33,986 nt of DNA from a virus. Under the pieces are notes generated by a model. The model was not told the origin of the DNA. It was given only the letters and a program-made list of their open reading frames with translations, and searched no databases. Positions 3,246 to 12,307 of the stretch are shown in pieces; position 1 is the stretch's first letter; the number at the start of each line of letters is the position of its first letter. Made by a program: the position numbers and the translations under genes. The stretch covers positions 1 to 33,986 of IMG/VR virus record IMGVR_UViG_3300025889_000056; one strand, given 5' to 3'.

Positions 3246-3530
3246 TCAGTTATTTTTTGCTTTGTCCAGTATCATCATATTGGACAGTTTATATAGCATT
3301 CGTTGACTGTCCTTGGGCCACAGCACTTTAACTAGGGCCAACAGGTTTGGAGCAGTTGGTATCCTTTTACCTGTTCTGTAAAAGTCAAGGCAACTCTTTG
3401 TAACGCCCACTCGTCTTGCCAGTTCAGACAGACTTGGCCATTCCTCATTGAAGCCTTCATCAATGCGCTCCTGAATCAGTTCATGCCAGGTTATTACTGT
3501 TGATAGTGGTAGTGGTGGTAGTCCTTTCAT
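3246..3530 (-). CDS. XRE-family HTH regulator
   Basis: A 94-aa protein with an HTH at about residues 33-62: SLSELARRVGVTKSCLDFYR, then TGKRIPTAP is a textbook Xre/Cro-type HTH and its trailing wing-like segment. The N-terminus (MKGLPPLPLS) is proline-rich. The ATG at 3530 has GAGGTG 4 bp upstream and overlaps the stop of the 59-aa gene before it (ATGA). As the last gene of the minus operon before the terminator, it is a likely phage repressor or early regulator. Its operator is unknown; the repeated elements in the divergent promoter region are candidates. Confidence 0.8.
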   Translation of the reverse strand: MKGLPPLPLSTVITWHELIQERIDEGFNEEWPSLSELARRVGVTKSCLDFYRTGKRIPTAPNLLALVKVLWPKDSQRMLYKLSNMMILDKAKNN

Positions 3531-3706
3531 GCTTCACCTCTTGACAGTTTTATAATTTCATTGAATGACTGTTTGACGTATATGCAATTCTTTGTGGTCA
3601 GTTGAATCAATGACCATCCATCGTCTGATATTTCTACACACACGATATGTGCTGTGTTCACTATGATGTCAATGTCATCCAGTCCTGTAAGTCTAATTAG
3701 TTTCAT
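3527..3706 (-). CDS. FlbD/SwrD-like small beta protein
   Basis: A 59-aa ORF starting MKLIRLTGLDDIDIIVNTAH and ending SFNEIIKLSRGEA. The order of elements (hydrophobic first strand, middle VNTAHIVCVE, then a LIQLTTKNCIYVKQSFNEII-type strand, turn and terminal helix) matches the layout of FlbD-type proteins (short T/G-x-I/V-V segment, 'L...G....V.ES..E.'). Evidence that it is a gene: the start has GAGGAC at a good distance, it overlaps the SWIM gene by 14 bp, and its TGA overlaps the next ATG. Phages carry such small proteins without flagellar context and their role is unknown. The family call is from pattern recognition only. Confidence 0.62.
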   Translation of the reverse strand: MKLIRLTGLDDIDIIVNTAHIVCVEISDDGWSLIQLTTKNCIYVKQSFNEIIKLSRGEA

Positions 3707-4001
3707 TGTTGTCCTCTGGTTGTTGGAACTCTTCGCTCCAGTTCTTAGTCACTTGTGTGGCTACAGCACCAAGGTGCTTGCATTGACTGCCACGATACTG
3801 ATGGTCGGGGCAGGTACAGGTGTACCCGTTCTCATCGATGACACATGTCCACTTGGGATAGTGTCCGACGATAGAACCATCAGGCCCCATCGTCATTCGA
3901 AGCTGCTCCAGTGCCATTTGGAGCAGTTGTTGTTTGTCGTCGAACACACTGCGGAGTCTCCACAACTCCGCAATGTCCTTGATGGTTTCGGTGATTGTCA
4001 T
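3693..4001 (-). CDS. Small SWIM zinc-finger protein
   Basis: A 102-aa protein with a clear SWIM-type zinc motif CxCx9CxH: C62-T-C64 and C74-K-H76 in YTCTCPDHQYRGSQCKHLGA. The N-terminal 40 residues are helical and charged. SWIM modules occur in recombination and transposase-associated proteins and bind DNA or proteins; here the domain is nearly the whole protein. The ATG at 4001 overlaps the upstream TGA (ATGA) and is preceded by AAGGGG. A role in early replication, recombination or host takeover is inferred from the operon only. A 16-bp repeat (3905-3920) shared with the control region 6582-6597 lies inside this gene. Confidence 0.8.
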   Translation of the reverse strand: MTITETIKDIAELWRLRSVFDDKQQLLQMALEQLRMTMGPDGSIVGHYPKWTCVIDENGYTCTCPDHQYRGSQCKHLGAVATQVTKNWSEEFQQPEDNNETN

Positions 4002-4494: not shown

Positions 4495-5283
4495 TCAATG
4501 GTTGCGCCAGAACTCTTGGTCTGACATTCCACCATGTTGATTGGTGGTTGGTTGTTTAGATAGTGTTGGTTGTGGTTGTGGTTGTACGTTTGGTCGTACA
4601 GCAGGTTGGTCGGGTGGTACATGTACCTCTCCAACAATGTTGCCTTCGTTGTCCAAGGTCAATCCTGCTGTGCGAACCATATGTTGCACAGACCATAGCC
4701 ACGGGTTGAATAGTTTTGTTGATTCCTCTTTCATTGATTCTTTCACCTTGGCATCGAACTCGGGGTTCCGAACCGACTCTGGTAGAACCAATAGGCGACG
4801 ACTGGTCTTATAGAAATGGTCAAGACGTAGACGTGTATCCATCTCCATCTTGTCCTTCAACTCCACCCAAGTGGACAGTTTAGACTTTCCGAACTTCGCT
4901 CTAGCACCTTCACAGGTACATGAGCATCCTGCATTGTACACCTTGTACTGGTCTTCCTCTATCTTGAGAAAGTGAGCAGAGATATGAACAATACCATTGT
5001 ATCGCTCACAGTCAGCACAGAACTGAAAGATATTTCCTGTCAATCCAGTACCACCCCGTTCTTTGACGATAGCCTCACATTCAGCCACAACGTGGCCTAG
5101 TTTGGGAGGATACTCCCATATTTCTCGGCTCATTCTTTTAATGGCGGTGACCAAGTCAATATCTGTCGTTTGGGAGAATGCATCCTCCCAAACGGATTCT
5201 ACCGTGCCTGCCCATTGCCCATTCAGATTGAATGATGCAGCGAAGACATTGAGTGCATGTTTTAAGCCGTGTCTTGTCGTCAT
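4495..5283 (-). CDS. Possible replication initiator or helicase-loader-like protein with Cys cluster
   Basis: A 262-aa protein. Residues 25-75 (VWEDAFSQTTDIDLVTAIKR ... EIWEYPPKLGHVVAE) resemble the N-terminal helical part of phage helicase loaders and replication organisers, where a run 'W...F......A........PP..G.+' is common. A central Cys cluster (C89, C92, C120, C122, C124) looks like a zinc site. The C-terminal 50 residues are P/Q/T-rich and probably disordered (QPQPQPTLSKQP), ending DQEFWRNH. The ATG overlaps the preceding stop. This is the only recognisable replication candidate in the genome. The assignment is weak and rests on pattern and operon position. Confidence 0.6.
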   Translation of the reverse strand: MTTRHGLKHALNVFAASFNLNGQWAGTVESVWEDAFSQTTDIDLVTAIKRMSREIWEYPPKLGHVVAECEAIVKERGGTGLTGNIFQFCADCERYNGIVHISAHFLKIEEDQYKVYNAGCSCTCEGARAKFGKSKLSTWVELKDKMEMDTRLRLDHFYKTSRRLLVLPESVRNPEFDAKVKESMKEESTKLFNPWLWSVQHMVRTAGLTLDNEGNIVGEVHVPPDQPAVRPNVQPQPQPTLSKQPTTNQHGGMSDQEFWRNH

Positions 5284-5933
5284 GGTAACAATGCTCCCGT
5301 GTCAGGACAGAACCTAACCTCAGTAGTGGTTGACTGTTGTTGCATTTCTAGTTTGGCTTGTTGGGCCATTGCGTAGTTGCCTGTTCTGCGGCTTGCATTT
5401 AGAACCGTGGCAGGGTCTAGCATACCCTTATCTCTAAGGTACTTGGCCCTGTAGTGGTTCGATGTCCACTGCCATTCGAGGATGTCTAGAGCTTGTTGTA
5501 CCCAGTCATTACTAACACAGGAGCATATCACACCTACGTTCTTTTCTGAGATTATGGTTGGGTACGACCCATAGTGTTGGTTGTGTAACTTGAACCAGTA
5601 TTCGATGATTACATAACATTTACTGTTACTGGTTAGCATTGTAACCAGTGATGGTGCAGTTGACGGGTCTATGGAGATAGTTTGCTCCAGTACCTGAATT
5701 TTCATCGATACAACACCACCACCACTATCTCTTTGAGACTGTGTAAGTTGCTGTGGCTGTGACTGCGCTCCAGTGCCAGATGCCATCATCGCCATTACCT
5801 GGCTGAATCCTTCACTGACGATGAACCGCTCGCCCCCTGAACTGATGACTACTGTTGCCTGACCCTTGGGCCACGCACTGTCAATCTCCCGTACATACAC
5901 AGGAGTTTTATTGTCTACTTTTGTTAGAATCAT
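5280..5933 (-). CDS. Early protein with FlbD-like N-terminus, unknown
   Basis: A 217-aa protein. Residues 1-55 (MILTKVDNKTPVYVREID ... ATVVISSGGERFIVSEGFSQ) follow the FlbD-like layout also seen in the 59-aa gene at 3527: a first strand, then V.I.SGG..F.VSEGF. A low-complexity Q/S/G linker follows (residues 55-72), then a second domain with several W residues (DILEWQWTSNHYRAKYLRD). I do not recognise the second domain. The ATG at 5933 has GGAG 6 bp upstream and lies 1 bp after the preceding stop; the longer open frame lacks an SD. Its stop overlaps the next ATG. Confidence 0.7.
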   Translation of the reverse strand: MILTKVDNKTPVYVREIDSAWPKGQATVVISSGGERFIVSEGFSQVMAMMASGTGAQSQPQQLTQSQRDSGGGVVSMKIQVLEQTISIDPSTAPSLVTMLTSNSKCYVIIEYWFKLHNQHYGSYPTIISEKNVGVICSCVSNDWVQQALDILEWQWTSNHYRAKYLRDKGMLDPATVLNASRRTGNYAMAQQAKLEMQQQSTTTEVRFCPDTGALLP

Positions 5934-5934
5934 A

Positions 5935-6285
5935 TCAAGCTCCTGCCAATAACCAGATTGTACGTTGAACGAATACCACGATGTCTGGCTTGGAAAGGAG
6001 TACAGCCCCACGTTGCTCTTCTCCCATTCGTTGTACCTGTACGATTGGTAGACACTCGATATCCATTGACACTGTTTGTTTTGGGCTACGGGTCATCGAT
6101 GTCACATGGATGGTCACTACACTGCCTTTGATGTCAGCTTCAACAAGTATGTCCTCGTTGTCACCGAAGAATGCTTGTAGCATCCCTGTGTCGTTAGGTT
6201 CGAATGTGAGTTCCCATAGGGCAATTGTAATGTGTTCTTCTACGTTATATTGCTGTAGAATCTGTTGTCTAAAGTCATTAGTCAT
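5935..6285 (-). CDS. First gene of the minus early operon, unknown
   Basis: A 116-aa protein beginning MTNDFRQQILQQYNVEEH. It is acidic and looks mixed alpha/beta (ITIALWELTFEPNDTGMLQ, then DILVEADIKGSVVTIHV). I do not recognise it. The ATG at 6285 has GAGGA 6 bp upstream inside the leader element AACCAACCAATGAGGA, which also precedes plus-strand early genes. The promoter at 6332-6360 is about 40 bp upstream. As first gene of an early operon it could be a host-takeover or anti-defence protein, but nothing in the sequence proves this. Confidence 0.75.
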   Translation of the reverse strand: MTNDFRQQILQQYNVEEHITIALWELTFEPNDTGMLQAFFGDNEDILVEADIKGSVVTIHVTSMTRSPKQTVSMDIECLPIVQVQRMGEEQRGAVLLSKPDIVVFVQRTIWLLAGA

Positions 6286-6934: not shown

Positions 6935-7099
6935 ATGTATACAAATATCATATATACACGGCTAGAAAAAGGTCGCTATCAAGTGACCTTTACACAACAC
7001 AACACAACCGGATTTATGGGGCTTACTAAGTGGTGTATCTATTTTGATTCTTTAAAAGAGTTAAAACAACAATATCCAACAGCTCAACCAAAGCAATAA
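6935..7099 (+). CDS. Small early protein, unknown
   Basis: A 54-aa ORF, MYTNIIYTRLEKGRYQVTF..., with two beta-like stretches and a helical end (FDSLKELKQQYPTA). It reads like a small beta-beta-alpha protein but I do not recognise it. The ATG at 6935 has AGGAAG 4 bp upstream within the repeated leader; an in-frame ATG at 6887 overlaps the -10 box and cannot be the start. It is the first gene after the plus early promoter. First early genes often act against host functions, but this one has no diagnostic motif. Confidence 0.68.
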   Translation: MYTNIIYTRLEKGRYQVTFTQHNTTGFMGLTKWCIYFDSLKELKQQYPTAQPKQ

Positions 7100-7127
7100 C
7101 AACCAACCAACAATGAGGACTATAACA

Positions 7128-8264
7128 ATGACAAAGCTAACTGAAAAACAAAAGCGTGAAATCACACTTAGAACAGTACGACAATACATTTTAACCGATA
7201 ATATTAGAACCTTTAGACGTTCAATGACTAACAACCAACTTATAGGAAGTGTCAATGGGCGCCCCAGCTGGGATTCTTTAATGTATACCACAACCCAACG
7301 AGAGGTTAACGGAAAATTAAAGACGTTTAAGAATAGACGTTCAATACTGTCTAGTAGTGTCAAGTTTGCTAAAACACACAAAAATATTGGTGTGACCGGT
7401 ATGTATCTAGCCCCTCACACTATGGTAGCCGGTCTAAATACTTGTAAATTTGCCGGTAAATGCGCTAAAGGGTGTATCGCCTTTACCGGAAATATGAAAT
7501 TTAACGGATTGACCTTTCAGAATCGTTTAAAGGCCTTGTATAATCATACTGAACGATATCTAACCGAAATGCTAGCCGACTTAGTAGAACTGACAGAAAA
7601 GTTAGAAGACGGCAAAAAGGTTATGGTACGTCTAAACGGGACCAGTGATTTAGATTTTACTAAGGTTATAGATATGCAGGCCTTCATAAGAGACTACCCA
7701 AATGTATTGGGATTCTATGACTATACAAAAAGACCGGTTAATATTGGTATCGATGACGTATATCATCTTACTTATTCATGGTCCGAAAGGTCAACAATTA
7801 AACAGGCTAAACAATTCGATAGGGTGGCTGTTGTAGTGTCTTCTAAGGATATTGATTGGCTAGTTAATGACCCTCTTATAGGCCATCTATGGAGTGATGG
7901 AGATGAGCATGATCTAAGACCTTTAGACGATACTAAGCTTGTATATCTAAAGGCTAAAGTCGCAGCTTCTTTAACGGATCCCAATATCGGTATAGATGAG
8001 GACTTTATAACAACACGTGAACAATTGCATATGTTAACCGTGTGTATGTATCCTGAATTCTTTCCTTTGCTACGTGAATATGTTTTGTCAGAACTTTCAC
8101 GTTTAGGTTTTTGGCACATGTTGGATGGTATCAAGTTTGATACATGGGATATAGAGACGTGTATAAATCATATTGATATGTCTAAAAGTCTAAACACTAT
8201 TACTGACTTAGAATACCACTATCTCAATCATCTTGTAAAATGTGTTTTGGGGGTGACATGTTAG
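7128..8264 (+). CDS. gp88/DUF7227-like phage protein
   Basis: A 378-aa protein. The key block is residues 93-205: LAPHTMVAGLNTCKFAG, KCAKGCIAFTGNMKF (C106, C112, C116), then a helical stretch and MVRLNGTSDLDF, IRDYPNVLGFYDYTKRP. This order (Cys-rich 'C..aG.C...C.a..G...f', then 'vR..g.sD.....y', then 'P...fY.YTK') is the pattern of the phage 'gene product 88' or DUF7227 family, whose biochemistry I do not know to be established. The three Cys suggest a metal site. The start at 7128 has GAGGAC at good spacing; an ATG at 7113 overlaps that SD. It is the main gene of the early unit from the 6860 promoter. Confidence 0.75.
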   Translation: MTKLTEKQKREITLRTVRQYILTDNIRTFRRSMTNNQLIGSVNGRPSWDSLMYTTTQREVNGKLKTFKNRRSILSSSVKFAKTHKNIGVTGMYLAPHTMVAGLNTCKFAGKCAKGCIAFTGNMKFNGLTFQNRLKALYNHTERYLTEMLADLVELTEKLEDGKKVMVRLNGTSDLDFTKVIDMQAFIRDYPNVLGFYDYTKRPVNIGIDDVYHLTYSWSERSTIKQAKQFDRVAVVVSSKDIDWLVNDPLIGHLWSDGDEHDLRPLDDTKLVYLKAKVAASLTDPNIGIDEDFITTREQLHMLTVCMYPEFFPLLREYVLSELSRLGFWHMLDGIKFDTWDIETCINHIDMSKSLNTITDLEYHYLNHLVKCVLGVTC

Positions 8265-8404
8265 GATTCTTAGATACTTTTAAGCGGCTTTTAAATGATA
8301 GTCCTACTGTTAAGATAGGGTTTATGTTTAACATCGTTTTATGGGGGTGTTTTGGCCTCTTAAAGGGTCTGTCTTGGCTTGCTACCCTCCTAATAGGGGG
8401 GTAG
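8258..8404 (+). CDS. Small single-span membrane protein
   Basis: A 48-aa ORF starting at an ATG that overlaps the end of the gp88-like gene by 7 bp. Residues 1-18 are charged (FLDTFKRLLNDSPTVKIG). Residues about 20-47 form one hydrophobic segment (FMFNIVLWGCFGLLKGLSWL). The overlap start and clear membrane segment suggest a real early membrane peptide, for example a superinfection exclusion or lysis-timing protein. No family is recognised. Confidence 0.58.
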   Translation: MLGFLDTFKRLLNDSPTVKIGFMFNIVLWGCFGLLKGLSWLATLLIGG

Positions 8405-8405
8405 T

Positions 8406-8465
8406 ATGAACAAATTCTATTTTTGGATGATAGTTTTTATCATATTCAATAGTTGCAAGTGCTAG
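8406..8465 (+). CDS. Possible 19-aa lipoprotein-signal-like peptide
   Basis: A tiny ORF encoding MNKFYFWMIVFIIFNSCKC. It has the form of a type II signal peptide: a positive N-terminus, a hydrophobic core, then a Cys preceded by small residue S. After the would-be lipidated Cys there are only two residues. A G-rich stretch precedes the start and a terminator follows 22 bp after the stop. It could be a micro-lipoprotein or a chance ORF. Confidence 0.32.
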   Translation: MNKFYFWMIVFIIFNSCKC

Positions 8466-8487
8466 TACAAAATATCTAATCACTTTG

Positions 8488-8517
8488 AACCCTTGACGAT
8501 TCAGTCAGGGGTTTTTT
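8488..8517 (+). terminator. Terminator ending the plus early unit
   Basis: AACCCTTGAC (8488-8497) pairs with GTCAGGGGTT (8504-8513), 10 pairs with one wobble, 6-base loop GATTCA, then T6. It is a strong canonical rho-independent terminator that separates early genes from the repeat region. Confidence 0.9.
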
Positions 8518-8628
8518 GTTGCGTGTGCATTAATCCACCTGGATTTTTTCAACACAATTCGTATGTTGCATACACAGCAAAATGACACAACTGCAATATA
8601 TGCAAACACAGCAAAATATATACTGCAC

Positions 8629-8657
8629 TTGCAACACCACAACCACCACTATATTAT
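8629..8657 (+). promoter_or_regulatory. Possible promoter for the 108-aa gene
   Basis: -35 TTGCAA (8629-8634, 4 of 6), 17-bp spacer, -10 TATTAT (8652-8657, 5 of 6). The spacer contains an ATAGTGGTG-type element on the opposite strand, and a TGC-N10-GCA motif covers the expected start site. It is weaker than the other promoters called here. Confidence 0.42.
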
Positions 8658-8738
8658 GCTACTATTACAGCATATGATACAAATTGTTGTAAATGCAGCA
8701 CTCCGAACCTCCAATAACTCATTAAGTAAGGGGTACTA

Positions 8739-9065
8739 ATGAAAGGTACAAAATCCGCAAGGCTAGAAGCTCCGAAAACTCTAATATCTAGAAGCATTCG
8801 AAATAGGAATATCAACGGGTTACTATGGGGGTTTATCACCTTAGCACATGAGGAAATTAAGACAGCTGGCCATATTGAAACCTTTTCAGGCTCCGATATA
8901 AGGGACTTTGTCAAGCTGTTGCATGCTAGAGAGATTGAGAGCAAACTACAAGATGACGCAACGACAGCAATGTCCACTAGGCAACTGCAGCAATGGATTG
9001 ATGCAAGTGCAGCACAGGAAACCAATGTTGCAAAATCAGCATCCAAGGCCACGAAATCCAAATAA
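8739..9065 (+). CDS. Small helical protein, candidate small terminase or repeat-binding protein
   Basis: A 108-aa basic protein: N-terminus MKGTKSARLEAPKTLISRS, central helices (NGLLWGFITLAHEEIKTA, DIRDFVKLLHAREIESKL), and an A/S/K-rich tail ending KSASKATKSK. I do not recognise a family. The ATG has AAGGGG 6 bp upstream. Its gene lies inside the TGC-N7-GCA array and upstream of the large terminase, and no other small terminase is visible. In P22- and SPP1-like phages pac lies in or near the small terminase gene, so a TerS role with the array as its site is an attractive inference. A replication initiator or regulator is the alternative. Confidence 0.6.
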   Translation: MKGTKSARLEAPKTLISRSIRNRNINGLLWGFITLAHEEIKTAGHIETFSGSDIRDFVKLLHAREIESKLQDDATTAMSTRQLQQWIDASAAQETNVAKSASKATKSK

Positions 9066-9280
9066 CGCGCCTGCAGCATCAGAGGGGCCACGATGTTGCA
9101 AGCGCAGCATCCCTGATTGGCTGGGTCCTCATGCTGCATCGACAGCAGCTGGTCCACAATGTCCTTGTCATCTTTGCAGCAATATCTAGGCAGGGTGAAG
9201 GGAGGGGAATTCGGATGGTAACTAAATACAAGATTCAATTGCTGTCAAGGCAGCAATATCCAGTGTAGGGATCGGTCGGG

Positions 9281-9323
9281 TTGCTACGTTCACAGCACGA
9301 ATCCCTTCGTGCTATAGTAGCAA
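9281..9323. repeat. Interrupted inverted repeat forming a large hairpin
   Basis: Outer arms TTGCTAC (9281-9287) and GTAGCAA (9317-9323) pair perfectly. Inner arms AGCACGAA (9294-9301) and TTCGTGCT (9306-9313) also pair perfectly around TCCC. They are separated by an asymmetric internal loop (6 and 3 bases). No T-run follows, so it is not a terminator. The arms include array motifs. Confidence 0.8.
9289..9318 (+). promoter_or_regulatory. Possible promoter with palindrome in its spacer
   Basis: -35 TTCACA (9289-9294, 5 of 6), 18-bp spacer, -10 TATAGT (9313-9318, 5 of 6). The spacer is almost entirely the perfect inner hairpin. It could drive the DpdA-like gene, terminase and downstream genes. 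Protein binding to the dyad or flanking motifs would directly affect it. Confidence 0.5.
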
Positions 9324-9404
9324 TACCCGATAAGATCCCGAAACGGATATTGCGTTTACAGCATCTTGGTTTTTGATATTGCATATGCAGCAAAGTGGAG
9401 TAAC

Positions 9405-9432: not shown

Positions 9433-9525
9433 AGTTATGAAAACGACCGTATAAAACTATATTTATCGTAGCTGTTATTCTCTGTATCTGTTACGATAGT
9501 TTTACAACCAACTACAGAGATATTC

Positions 9526-10185
9526 ATGCAAGTATACACAGCTGCACTTCCTAACAAGCTTTGTCAAGAATACATCGATGAACACTACCCAGAAATGCGC
9601 TATATGCTATCCCCTGTGTGTGTACGGTCTTTTGGTGCTAGTAGATACCATATTGTTAGAAGGGGATACGCAATAGACAACGGTGCGTATGGGTATCATG
9701 TCAAGGGTGTACCATTCAACGATAAGGCCTTTATAGACCTGCTAGAAAAGTGGCATGATGGGTGCGATTGGATAGCTATACCTGATAGTGTGGGCAATTG
9801 GGTAGAGACAAAGAAACTACTAGATATATGGGTTCCTAGACTACTACCCTATAACAAACCTTTATTAATGGTAGTACAGGATGGATGTGAGAAAGGCAAC
9901 TATAAAGACGTCTATAGGCTACTAAATAGAAAGGCTATATGTGGGTTATTTGTAGGGGGTACTACAGACTGGAAACTACAACATATGAGCAAGTTAACAG
10001 AGATAGCACACCAGTATCATAAGACCATACATGTAGGTAGAGTTAACAGTGGTAGACGTGTACAGTTATGTTTCAACAGTGGTGTAGATAGTGTAGACGG
10101 TAGTGGTATGAGTAGGTTTATAGCGACTACTAGAGTAGTGTGTAATACTATAGTAGAGATTGATAGACAGTTGAAACTATTTTAA
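9526..10185 (+). CDS. TGT-superfamily base-exchange enzyme, DpdA-like
   Basis: A 219-aa protein with the pattern of phage DpdA-type members of the tRNA-guanine transglycosylase fold: YAIDNGAYG (D51), DWIAIPDSVG (D87), LLMVVQDG (Q118), GLFVGGTTDWK (140-150), IHVGRVNSGRR (168-178) and GVDSVDGSG (186-194). In TGT-fold enzymes the two aspartates act in base exchange, the nucleophile lying late and the acid/base early. DpdA puts a 7-deazaguanine base into DNA in place of guanine. At 219 aa it is far shorter than bacterial TGT (about 370) and lacks the zinc Cys cluster. No FolE, QueD, QueE or QueC gene is present, so the base would come from the host. The ATG has AGAGAT upstream. Specificity for DNA rather than tRNA is inferred. 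Confidence 0.78.
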   Translation: MQVYTAALPNKLCQEYIDEHYPEMRYMLSPVCVRSFGASRYHIVRRGYAIDNGAYGYHVKGVPFNDKAFIDLLEKWHDGCDWIAIPDSVGNWVETKKLLDIWVPRLLPYNKPLLMVVQDGCEKGNYKDVYRLLNRKAICGLFVGGTTDWKLQHMSKLTEIAHQYHKTIHVGRVNSGRRVQLCFNSGVDSVDGSGMSRFIATTRVVCNTIVEIDRQLKLF

Positions 10186-10187
10186 TA

Positions 10188-11708
10188 GTGGTGGTGTTGG
10201 TGTTAGAACAAGTAAATACAATATTTAGTGACCCATTTCAGTTTATTAGTAGGCTACAGATAGTCGATAAGAGTGGTAGGGTAGTTCCTCTTAGACTGAA
10301 TGCAGAACAGATAGACATTATCAATGGATTACAAGAGGGTGATGATACACTGATATTGAAGCCTAGACAGATAGGTAGTAGTACGGTTGTATGTGCTTAT
10401 ATGTTTTGGAAAGCATATACAGCAACAACACCACTAACCTGTGTAATCTTATCGTATAAGATTGCTAGTTCGAAGCATTTATTGCACATACACAAGAGGT
10501 TCTATCAGTATCTACCAGAGGTATTGAAAAGGCCATTGGATGTAGACAATACAACAGAGTTAGCCTTTAAAGGAGGGGGTAGGATTGTAGCAGCGGCGGC
10601 CACACAGGCAGGAGGATTGCGTTCATATACGTGTTCTATGCTTCATATATCGGAGTATGCTTTTGCAGAGAATCCAGAGGAGTTAAAGGCTACAGCGATT
10701 AGTGCATTGAATGATGGACAGTTAGTTATAGAGTCTACAGCTAACTATTACAATGATGCATTGTGGAAGGAGATACACAAGTATCATACAGGAGAAGCGC
10801 ATTGGAAATATTTGTTCTTTCCTTGGTATATGCACAGTGAGTATAGTATGGAGGATATTGGGCTTGAGTTGACTGATGAAGAGACTAAGTTGCAGTATCA
10901 GTATGGTTTGACACTGGGTCAGATAGCATGGAGACGTGAGAAGATTAGTAAGTTGGGATGGGAAAAGTTTGTACGTGAGTATCCTTTGACTTTGGATGAA
11001 GCATATAGGATTAGTGGGAATACATACTTTACAGCACAGGACTTTGACCATGTGAATGTAATACAGGTACAGCCTAGTGAATGGACAACATTTGAAAATC
11101 CTAATCCAGATGATTCGTATGCTGTGGGTGTAGATGTTAGTGGTGGTGTTGGTAGAGATTATGCTGTAGTGTTCTGTGTATCTAGGATGACCTTACAACC
11201 TGTATGTATATATCGTAGTAATACTGTAAGTCCTGTACAGTTGGCCGATTATATCTATGATATGAGTGTAACGTATAACAATGCATTGGTATTGGTGGAA
11301 AGTAACAACTATGGATTGGCTACCATTCAGGAGTTAAAGCATCAGGGATTCCATCGGTTTTGGTTGGATGCTCATACAGGTAAAGACTTTTTGACGACAG
11401 GTAGAACTAAGCCATTGTTGTTTGAGAACTTGAAGAAGGGCATCCAGACTGGTAGTATCCACATGATTGATAATATTACTGTGACTGAGTTGCGTAGTAT
11501 TACGGTAGATGAGAAGGGTATTTTGCGGTTTGGTGATGACATGGATACTCACTGTGATAGTGCGATGGCGATGTCATTGGCATATTGGTGTTTGAATAGT
11601 GTAAAGTTAAAGCAGAATGCATATTTGCCAGATTGGATTATTGCACAGAAGGCAGATAGGGTACAACAAGCAGGTGGTGTAAGTCCACAGCTGCATCGGA
11701 GATATTGA
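10188..11708 (+). CDS. terL: Terminase large subunit
   Basis: About 506 aa; the DNA-packaging motor ATPase and headful nuclease. ATPase: Walker A-like KPRQIGSST (58-66), Walker B-like SMLHISE ending in catalytic E156, and coupling motif IEST (181-184). RNase H-fold nuclease: D316 in YAVGVDVSGG, E371 in ALVLVESNNYG, and D457 in the C-terminal HCDSAMAMSLAY. The start is uncertain: the frame opens with GTG GTG GTG TTG GTG and no ATG or clear SD, 2 bp after the DpdA-like stop, so coupling is likely. The start region carries an ATAGTGGTG-family element. The stop overlaps the methyltransferase start (TGATG). Confidence 0.95.
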   Translation: MVVLVLEQVNTIFSDPFQFISRLQIVDKSGRVVPLRLNAEQIDIINGLQEGDDTLILKPRQIGSSTVVCAYMFWKAYTATTPLTCVILSYKIASSKHLLHIHKRFYQYLPEVLKRPLDVDNTTELAFKGGGRIVAAAATQAGGLRSYTCSMLHISEYAFAENPEELKATAISALNDGQLVIESTANYYNDALWKEIHKYHTGEAHWKYLFFPWYMHSEYSMEDIGLELTDEETKLQYQYGLTLGQIAWRREKISKLGWEKFVREYPLTLDEAYRISGNTYFTAQDFDHVNVIQVQPSEWTTFENPNPDDSYAVGVDVSGGVGRDYAVVFCVSRMTLQPVCIYRSNTVSPVQLADYIYDMSVTYNNALVLVESNNYGLATIQELKHQGFHRFWLDAHTGKDFLTTGRTKPLLFENLKKGIQTGSIHMIDNITVTELRSITVDEKGILRFGDDMDTHCDSAMAMSLAYWCLNSVKLKQNAYLPDWIIAQKADRVQQAGGVSPQLHRRY

Positions 11709-12307
11709 TGAAGGTATTGGTTGCTTGTGAAGAGAGTCAAACAGTTACCAAGGCATTTCGTCGTGTTGGTGTTGAAGCATATAGTTGTGATATTCAGGAG
11801 TGTTCTGGTGGTCATCCAGAATGGCATATCCAGGGAGATGCATTAGAGCAGGCTTACAGTGGTGAGTATGACTTAATGATAGCGCATCCTCCTTGTACGT
11901 ATCTTAGTAAAGCAGGGGCCAGGTGGATGAAACCCAAAGGTAGCATGGTGTGTCAGATTCGGTTTGCATTGGCTATGCAGGCTAAGGACTTTTTTATGAA
12001 ACTGTTGGATGCTCCAATACCCTATGTAGCGGTAGAGAATCCAATACCTTTAAAGATTTGTGGGTTGCCCAAGTGCACACAGATAGTTCATCCATATCAG
12101 TATGGTGACCCGTATTCGAAGACAACGTTGCTTTGGTTAAAGAACCTTCCTGAGTTACATCCAACCAATGTGGTTGAGCCTATTGGTTCCTGGACAGAGT
12201 TGAATCGTAAGGTGTCAAAACGTTCGAAAACGTTTAATGGTATTGCAGATGCAATGGTTAATCAGTGGTTAAGTTTTATAGGAGATAGTAATGGCATTTT
12301 GTCCTGA
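11708..12307 (+). CDS. C5-cytosine DNA methyltransferase-like protein
   Basis: A 199-aa Rossmann-fold protein. The SAM site is KVLVACEESQTVTKAFRRVG (2-21), then AYSCDIQECSGG (24-35). Motif IV is IAHPPCTYLS with the catalytic PPC (61-63, C63), and motif VI-like VAVENP (107-112). The late block HPYQYGDPYSKTTLLWLK (128-145) is typical of the short phage Dcm-like family. It is far shorter than full C5 methyltransferases and lacks an obvious target-recognition domain, as is usual in that family. The ATG at 11708 overlaps the terminase stop and has GGAG upstream. Likely roles are protecting phage DNA from restriction or marking DNA for packaging; activity is not proven. Confidence 0.82.
   Translation: MKVLVACEESQTVTKAFRRVGVEAYSCDIQECSGGHPEWHIQGDALEQAYSGEYDLMIAHPPCTYLSKAGARWMKPKGSMVCQIRFALAMQAKDFFMKLLDAPIPYVAVENPIPLKICGLPKCTQIVHPYQYGDPYSKTTLLWLKNLPELHPTNVVEPIGSWTELNRKVSKRSKTFNGIADAMVNQWLSFIGDSNGILS

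Follow-up and report, generated by a model that had tools for sequence, protein, structure and literature searches.

The virus record IMGVR_UViG_3300025889_000056, analyzed over its full 33,986 bases (hereafter the window), encodes a 219-residue protein that is probably a minimal, one-domain DpdA-type transglycosylase inserting a host-supplied 7-deazaguanine into phage DNA. By sequence, it belongs to a compact subfamily (phrog_15826) that is distinct from canonical DpdA. By analogy, the reaction is likely the base exchange known for tRNA-guanine transglycosylase (TGT); we infer catalytic activity, a DNA rather than a tRNA target, the inserted base, its supply by the host, and a benefit against restriction. 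The window carries an exact terminal repeat of 127 bp, and its end-to-start junction is spanned by a contig of a relative (L005), which indicates a circular, complete assembly and supports the original prediction, which had spoken of a complete genome.

Family assignment and predicted catalytic layout

The candidate enzyme is encoded by the following open reading frame:

9526–10185, plus strand: compact DpdA/TGT-like transglycosylase gene (ATG start, 219 aa)

Judged by sequence comparison, this is a real gene under purifying selection. Its start codon coincides in the alignment with that of a 67%-identical homolog in the sister phage L014, and the pair shows a dN of 0.26 at a dS saturated at about 4.7. 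Viral contigs yielded 480 loci with relatives, and 80 of these were retained; relatives also occur in 23 records of isolate phages and at 47 loci in bacterial or archaeal genomes.

The protein has no match among the Pfam or NCBIfam models. Among the PHROGs profiles, it matches phrog_15826, whose function is not known (E 2.5e-28), and weakly phrog_887, annotated as 'queuine tRNA-ribosyltransferase' (E 7e-5 over 54 residues). For comparison, canonical DpdA proteins match phrog_887 at E 1e-45 and 1e-96, a level of membership in the canonical family that the window protein does not reach. A profile of canonical DpdA scores it at E 2e-4, and a profile–profile comparison against eight DpdA proteins of the canonical type yields a probability of 95.5% (E 1.3e-8), with a confident match that spans only about residues 16–162. 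The corresponding match to Escherichia coli TGT is weak (E 0.07), and direct searches of the PDB with the sequence returned chance matches only. The matches to phrog_887 and canonical DpdA, together with the predicted fold, bear out the TGT-like nature proposed originally. Assignment to the compact subfamily is based on the phrog_15826 match and ten invariant residues, which are also present without exception in Sonali gp81, StevieRay gp54, and Aoka gp40 (27–31% identity). Members of this subfamily typically comprise about 200–220 residues; the length of 219 residues, previously considered to be among the shorter forms, is thus typical of the group and no sign of truncation.

The ten residues (D51, N52, P86, D87, Q118, G144, G145, K150, H169, and D191) do not vary among the 71 representatives of the family clustered at 70% identity, although this invariance is partly built in because the seed patterns used for finding loci include P86-D87 and G144-G145 (and, in the genome scan, K150); that of D51, N52, Q118, H169, and D191 is unaffected. 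The original set of catalytic candidates, D51, D87, and D188/D191, holds for all but D188, which is variable and replaced by histidine in L003 and in the Rhodococcus phage ReqiPine5. An AlphaFold2 model based on a 59-sequence alignment (pLDDT 96.2, pTM 0.92) predicts an eight-stranded TIM barrel (strands at residues 2–5, 25–28, 48–50, 80–84, 113–117, 138–143, 167–170, and 189–192) with D51, D87, Q118, G144-G145, H169, and D191 located at the ends of strands 3–8 or immediately past them. Such an Asp-Asp-Gln/His-GlyGly-Asp series at the strand ends of a TIM barrel is characteristic of the TGT/DpdA superfamily; with the fold predicted at high confidence, the model suggests that the catalytic layout of TGT and DpdA has been kept. 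The predicted roles are acid/base for D51, base recognition for D87 and Q118, and nucleophile for D191; G144-G145 and H169 complete the predicted site.

Structural searches of the PDB with Foldseek placed aldolases at the five best E-values (TMq 0.55–0.56), followed mostly by TGTs (TMq up to 0.65), which form the majority among the PDB matches listed. Among viral models, the matches include the DpdA-type proteins of Sonali, Mufasa8, and Megan, a protein of nt-1 (R9TGF0), and a 240-residue BFVD entry (M1Q6Y4) that is probably the DpdA of Cellulophaga phage phiSM. In the profile alignment onto the DpdA of phage 9g, D51 and D87 correspond to D72 and D114, and, in the second half, which was aligned with a permissive setting, H169 and D191 correspond to H196 and D215. 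H196 is the conserved histidine of DpdA that is absent from DpdA2 (PMC6884629); its counterpart H169, aligned under the permissive setting, is invariant among the 71 representatives.

The compact form therefore shares with the DpdA of phages (9g, CAjan, and the Rosebush group) the TIM barrel, a D-[NS]-G-A motif, the second aspartate, the GG loop, the H196-equivalent histidine, the terminal nucleophilic aspartate, and, in its relatives, a linkage to Que genes. It differs in being about 100 residues shorter, in the glutamine (Q118) that takes the place of the canonical histidine on strand 5, and in signatures of its own (HxGRVN and DSVDG[ST]); its similarity to canonical DpdA is near the detection limit, and both types occur in the genome of Sonali. 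The DpdA of phiSM (240 aa) is also short and has QueC close by, but scores E 2e-86 with the canonical profile, which included phiSM, versus E 0.006 with the compact profile, and shows no pairwise similarity. Bacterial TGTs (E. coli, Zymomonas mobilis) have the same fold and the same order of active-site residues, whereas the window protein has no zinc domain, is little over half their size, and shows no significant sequence match. Neither profile matched the halovirus HVTV-1, which has about 30% dPreQ1 and no known DpdA, in the 100,000 of its 102,319 bases that were searched. On visual inspection, its protein HVTV1_69 resembled the motif, but its score did not exceed that of shuffled sequence, and it was rejected.

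Queuosine-precursor genes around the compact relatives

When all genes within 9 kb of the compact transglycosylases were clustered into families, the commonest neighbors were QueC, QueE, and QueD. QueC, QueD, QueE, or FolE occur in the flanks of 25 of 52 viral clusters (36 of 79 viral-contig loci), usually adjacent to the transglycosylase, versus none of the 80 loci of a control family, GP88 (Fisher p 8e-13 on clusters; the sets were of equal size, 1.01 Mb for the transglycosylase and 0.94 Mb for GP88). In 26 clusters, the transglycosylase is overlapped by a Que or transporter gene or has one no more than 60 bp away; several of the overlaps are of 4 bases, for example in L015, L018, and L026. 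Overlaps were measured on the longest open reading frames and are possibly overstated where translation really begins further inside. At the level of whole records, 12 of 56 have QueC and 6 of 56 have the queuosine-precursor transporter Vut_1, with no record having both. The Vut_1 gene is located directly upstream of the transglycosylase in Rhodococcus phage ReqiPine5, Arthrobacter phage Aoka, and Mycobacterium phage StevieRay; import would make sense in the last of these because mycobacteria lack the preQ0 pathway (PMC6884629). A separate canonical DpdA (phrog_887) was not detected in the 35 records tested beyond weak self-matches (many are contig fragments, in which an absence carries little weight), whereas the positive controls Sonali and Escherichia phage SHIN8 were recognized.

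The window itself encodes neither QueC nor Vut_1 according to Pfam models, and custom-built profiles detected no QueC, QueD, QueE, FolE, or transporter, which confirms the reported absence of all four synthesis genes. The preQ0 synthesis genes expected in the same genome as a phage DpdA are thus missing here but present near 25 of the 52 viral clusters of the subfamily. In this respect, the window differs also from StevieRay gp54 and Aoka gp40, which belong to the same subfamily but adjoin a Vut_1 gene, and from Sonali gp81, whose genome has the full preQ0 pathway and a canonical DpdA. In a phylogeny of 70 representatives, the protein of the window groups with those of L014 and L003 (support 98). 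The trio lies inside a clade of seven (support 93); the remaining four, L015, L018, L020, and L022, all have QueC, two of them together with QueE. The presence of Que genes requires at least 17 changes on this tree, which indicates that synthesis genes have been gained or lost around a stable transglycosylase; in the simplest reading, the lineage of the window relies on the host for its base.

The original prediction implied that a transglycosylase without synthesis genes is an oddity. The observation is true of the window but not new in itself, because a published group 3 comprises 76 phages that have DpdA but lack preQ0 genes (Hutinet 2019, PMC6884629). Two of them were assayed: the modification was absent from Mycobacterium phage Orion, and Salmonella phage 7-11 had about 0.02% of G as dADG (PMC6884629). 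In Pantoea phage MED16, which carries dpdA only, dADG amounts to about 0.13% of G, and supply by the host has been proposed (PMC8306585). These singleton-DpdA phages resemble the window in having a transglycosylase without preQ0 synthesis and an apparent reliance on the host, but they are not among the records matched by the window protein and therefore probably represent other DpdA groups. The presence of dADG in MED16 and 7-11 provides a precedent for the DpdA reading, whereas the absence of the modification in Orion and its scarcity in the other two argue against it, as do the confident DpdA match limited to about residues 16–162, the aldolases leading the PDB matches, and the TGT-like Q118.

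Since Que and Vut_1 genes serve also tRNA queuosine, the protein might instead be a phage tRNA-modifying TGT that introduces 7-deazaguanine into host or phage tRNA and tunes translation during infection. The fold and catalytic layout are the same as those of TGT, and Q118 lies in a VQDG motif that resembles the VQGG motif of TGT. The zinc motif of TGT, however, consists of three cysteines and one histidine in the C-terminal region behind the nucleophilic aspartate, and the window protein has only 28 residues and a single cysteine (C206) beyond D191, so that its length and model indicate the lack of a zinc-binding region. The profile match is far better with phage DpdA (E 1e-8) than with E. coli TGT (E 0.07), the DpdA histidine is kept, and no tRNA gene was found in the window genome. 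In two related Gemmataceae MAG homologs (L125, 9851–10984; L126, 9875–10945), the transglycosylase is fused to a C-terminal zinc ribbon of ISL3-type transposases (PF14690), which suggests contact with a DNA target. A role in tRNA modification is therefore considered unlikely.

Slightly less likely still is that the linkage seen among the relatives does not hold for the lineage of the window, and that the enzyme acts on a base other than 7-deazaguanine or merely removes guanine as a glycosylase. The lack of any synthesis or import gene in the window would fit such an activity, as would the HxGRVNS...DSVDGSG signature, which is unlike that of canonical DpdA, and the nearly or fully invariant T147 and K150, for which no TGT counterpart was identified. 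But the catalytic-site positions of the window protein all match those of Que-linked relatives, including L015 and L018 of the same clade, whose genes overlap QueC. Of the two options offered by the original prediction, a base diverted from the host or another substrate, the neighborhoods of the relatives point to 7-deazaguanine and disfavor the latter; the preferred hypothesis is that a host precursor is diverted.

It is improbable that the protein is a degenerate TGT relative that has lost catalysis and been retained for some other role. Catalysis in the subfamily is a prediction, and SHIN8 has a split copy beside a full DpdA, but none of the predicted catalytic residues varies, and purifying selection acts on the gene. 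In SHIN8 (L009, 7854–8500), a Seuratvirus with full DpdA and Que genes, the compact transglycosylase is divided between two overlapping open reading frames between the clamp and DNA polymerase genes, which reflects either decay or a programmed frameshift; phage phiG7 was also matched.

Several other features of the neighborhoods were observed. The isolate phage Sonali (L010) encodes both the compact gp81 (7878–8495) and a canonical DpdA, gp87 (10865–11755), together with QueC, QueD, QueE, and GTP cyclohydrolase. PAPS-reductase-like genes recur near the transglycosylase (L006, L007, L011, L031, L032–L035, L039, L054, and L095; raw occurrence). The GP88-family protein of the window (PF17338, 7113–8264), which is widespread in viral contigs, has invariant cysteines (C111, C117, and C121) and RLNGTSD and FYDYTK motifs and, judged by eye, looks like an iron-sulfur or radical-SAM-like enzyme. 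It was rejected as a partner enzyme, since GP88 occurs in only 2 of 56 transglycosylase records and none of 80 GP88 loci has a transglycosylase or Que genes; the family then served as the control.

The accessory cassette next to the terminase

The transglycosylase gene is part of the following arrangement:

8739–9065, plus strand: 108-aa open reading frame, conserved in L004 and L005, no PHROG match
9448–10200, plus strand: accessory cassette of 753 bp (transglycosylase and upstream region), 22 bp instead in L004 and L005
10188–11708, plus strand: large terminase subunit, TerL (phrog_2, E 3.8e-30), directly downstream of the transglycosylase
11705–12307, plus strand: DNA methyltransferase (phrog_757, E 4.7e-52), overlapping the TerL stop

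The gene was correctly placed right before the terminase, whose GTG start lies at 10188 or, more likely, at 10200, as judged from the alignment with L004 (open reading frame 7002–8510). The 108-aa protein is a possible small terminase by position only. In a similarity search for host assignment, the best matches of TerL reached only about 27–29% identity.

Both L004 and L005 align collinearly with the window (about 78–89% nucleotide identity), and BLASTN collinearity equates window positions 9447 and 10201 with positions 6980 and 7003 of L004. Both relatives are fragments and lack the transglycosylase gene at this site. In the sister phage L014, TerL is followed by an unrelated methyltransferase (3332–3979; phrog_67, E 8.7e-40) that replaces the phrog_757 type, so the methyltransferase is probably a second, swappable DNA-modification gene. 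The 22-bp site and the methyltransferase swap together suggest that the transglycosylase is optional cargo beside a swappable modification gene, a status that fits anti-restriction better than packaging. The proposed link to packaging, by which a modification at or near the terminase gene would mark the DNA, is the least probable explanation: the gene abuts TerL in the window and precedes it in L014, with a repeat array just upstream, but L004 and L005 keep array and TerL and do not carry the gene at that point, L014 is the only other locus among those inspected that has the gene next to TerL, only 9 of about 70 clusters show a terminase-like gene at a distance of up to 9 kb, and the transglycosylase is located away from TerL in R6L, Sonali, StevieRay, and L018.

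The repeats are copies of an imperfect palindrome (TGYTGCA-N4-CAGCA), which matches the window 112 times with up to three mismatches (25.5 expected). They are clustered at 8517–9392, upstream of the transglycosylase, with scattered copies at 195, 861, 945, 1182, 1251, 14600, 17991, 23162, and 33117. L014 has a cluster at 239–604 (14 matches, 1.0 expected), and CAGCA/TGCTG is dense at the equivalent place in L004 and L005 too. The cluster might function in packaging or partition or serve as an array of operators. Elsewhere in the window, two overlapping open reading frames on the minus strand (4495–6011; 262 and 243 aa) showed no convincing match to any family.

Proposed mechanism and implications

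In the preferred reading as a DpdA-type transglycosylase, the enzyme would bind phage DNA, and D191 would attack C1' of the target deoxyguanosine, releasing guanine. The vacated position would be filled by a free 7-deazaguanine, either preQ0 or a closely related base, that D51, D87, Q118, and the G144-G145 loop would hold, and the resulting nucleotide would blunt host restriction. Because the phage has no genes for synthesis or import, the base would have to come from the preQ0/queuosine pathway of the host. The gene itself would be optional cargo in this phage group, carried beside the swappable methyltransferase.

Forty-eight phages have pathway genes but no DpdA, for which 'undetected 2'-deoxyribosyltransferases' have been allowed for (Hutinet 2019, PMC6884629). 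On balance, the compact subfamily may well be such an enzyme: an unrecognized class of DNA 7-deazaguanine transglycosylases of about 200 residues that is the sole inserter in many environmental phages with preQ0 genes but no canonical DpdA, supplied by their own synthesis, by import via Vut_1, or, as in the window, by the host. A distinct compact class linked to Que and Vut_1 genes was not found in the literature consulted, supplements aside, and its novelty is provisional. If the assignment is true, many phages with modified DNA escape the usual DpdA searches, since Pfam and NCBIfam offer no model for the subfamily and its similarity to DpdA is weak; the compact form would then also represent a minimal one-domain scaffold for exchanging a base in DNA. 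Sonali would be a good genetic system for separating the roles of the compact form and canonical DpdA, and the two modes of supply among the relatives, synthesis and transport, make the supply by the host that is proposed for the window directly testable.
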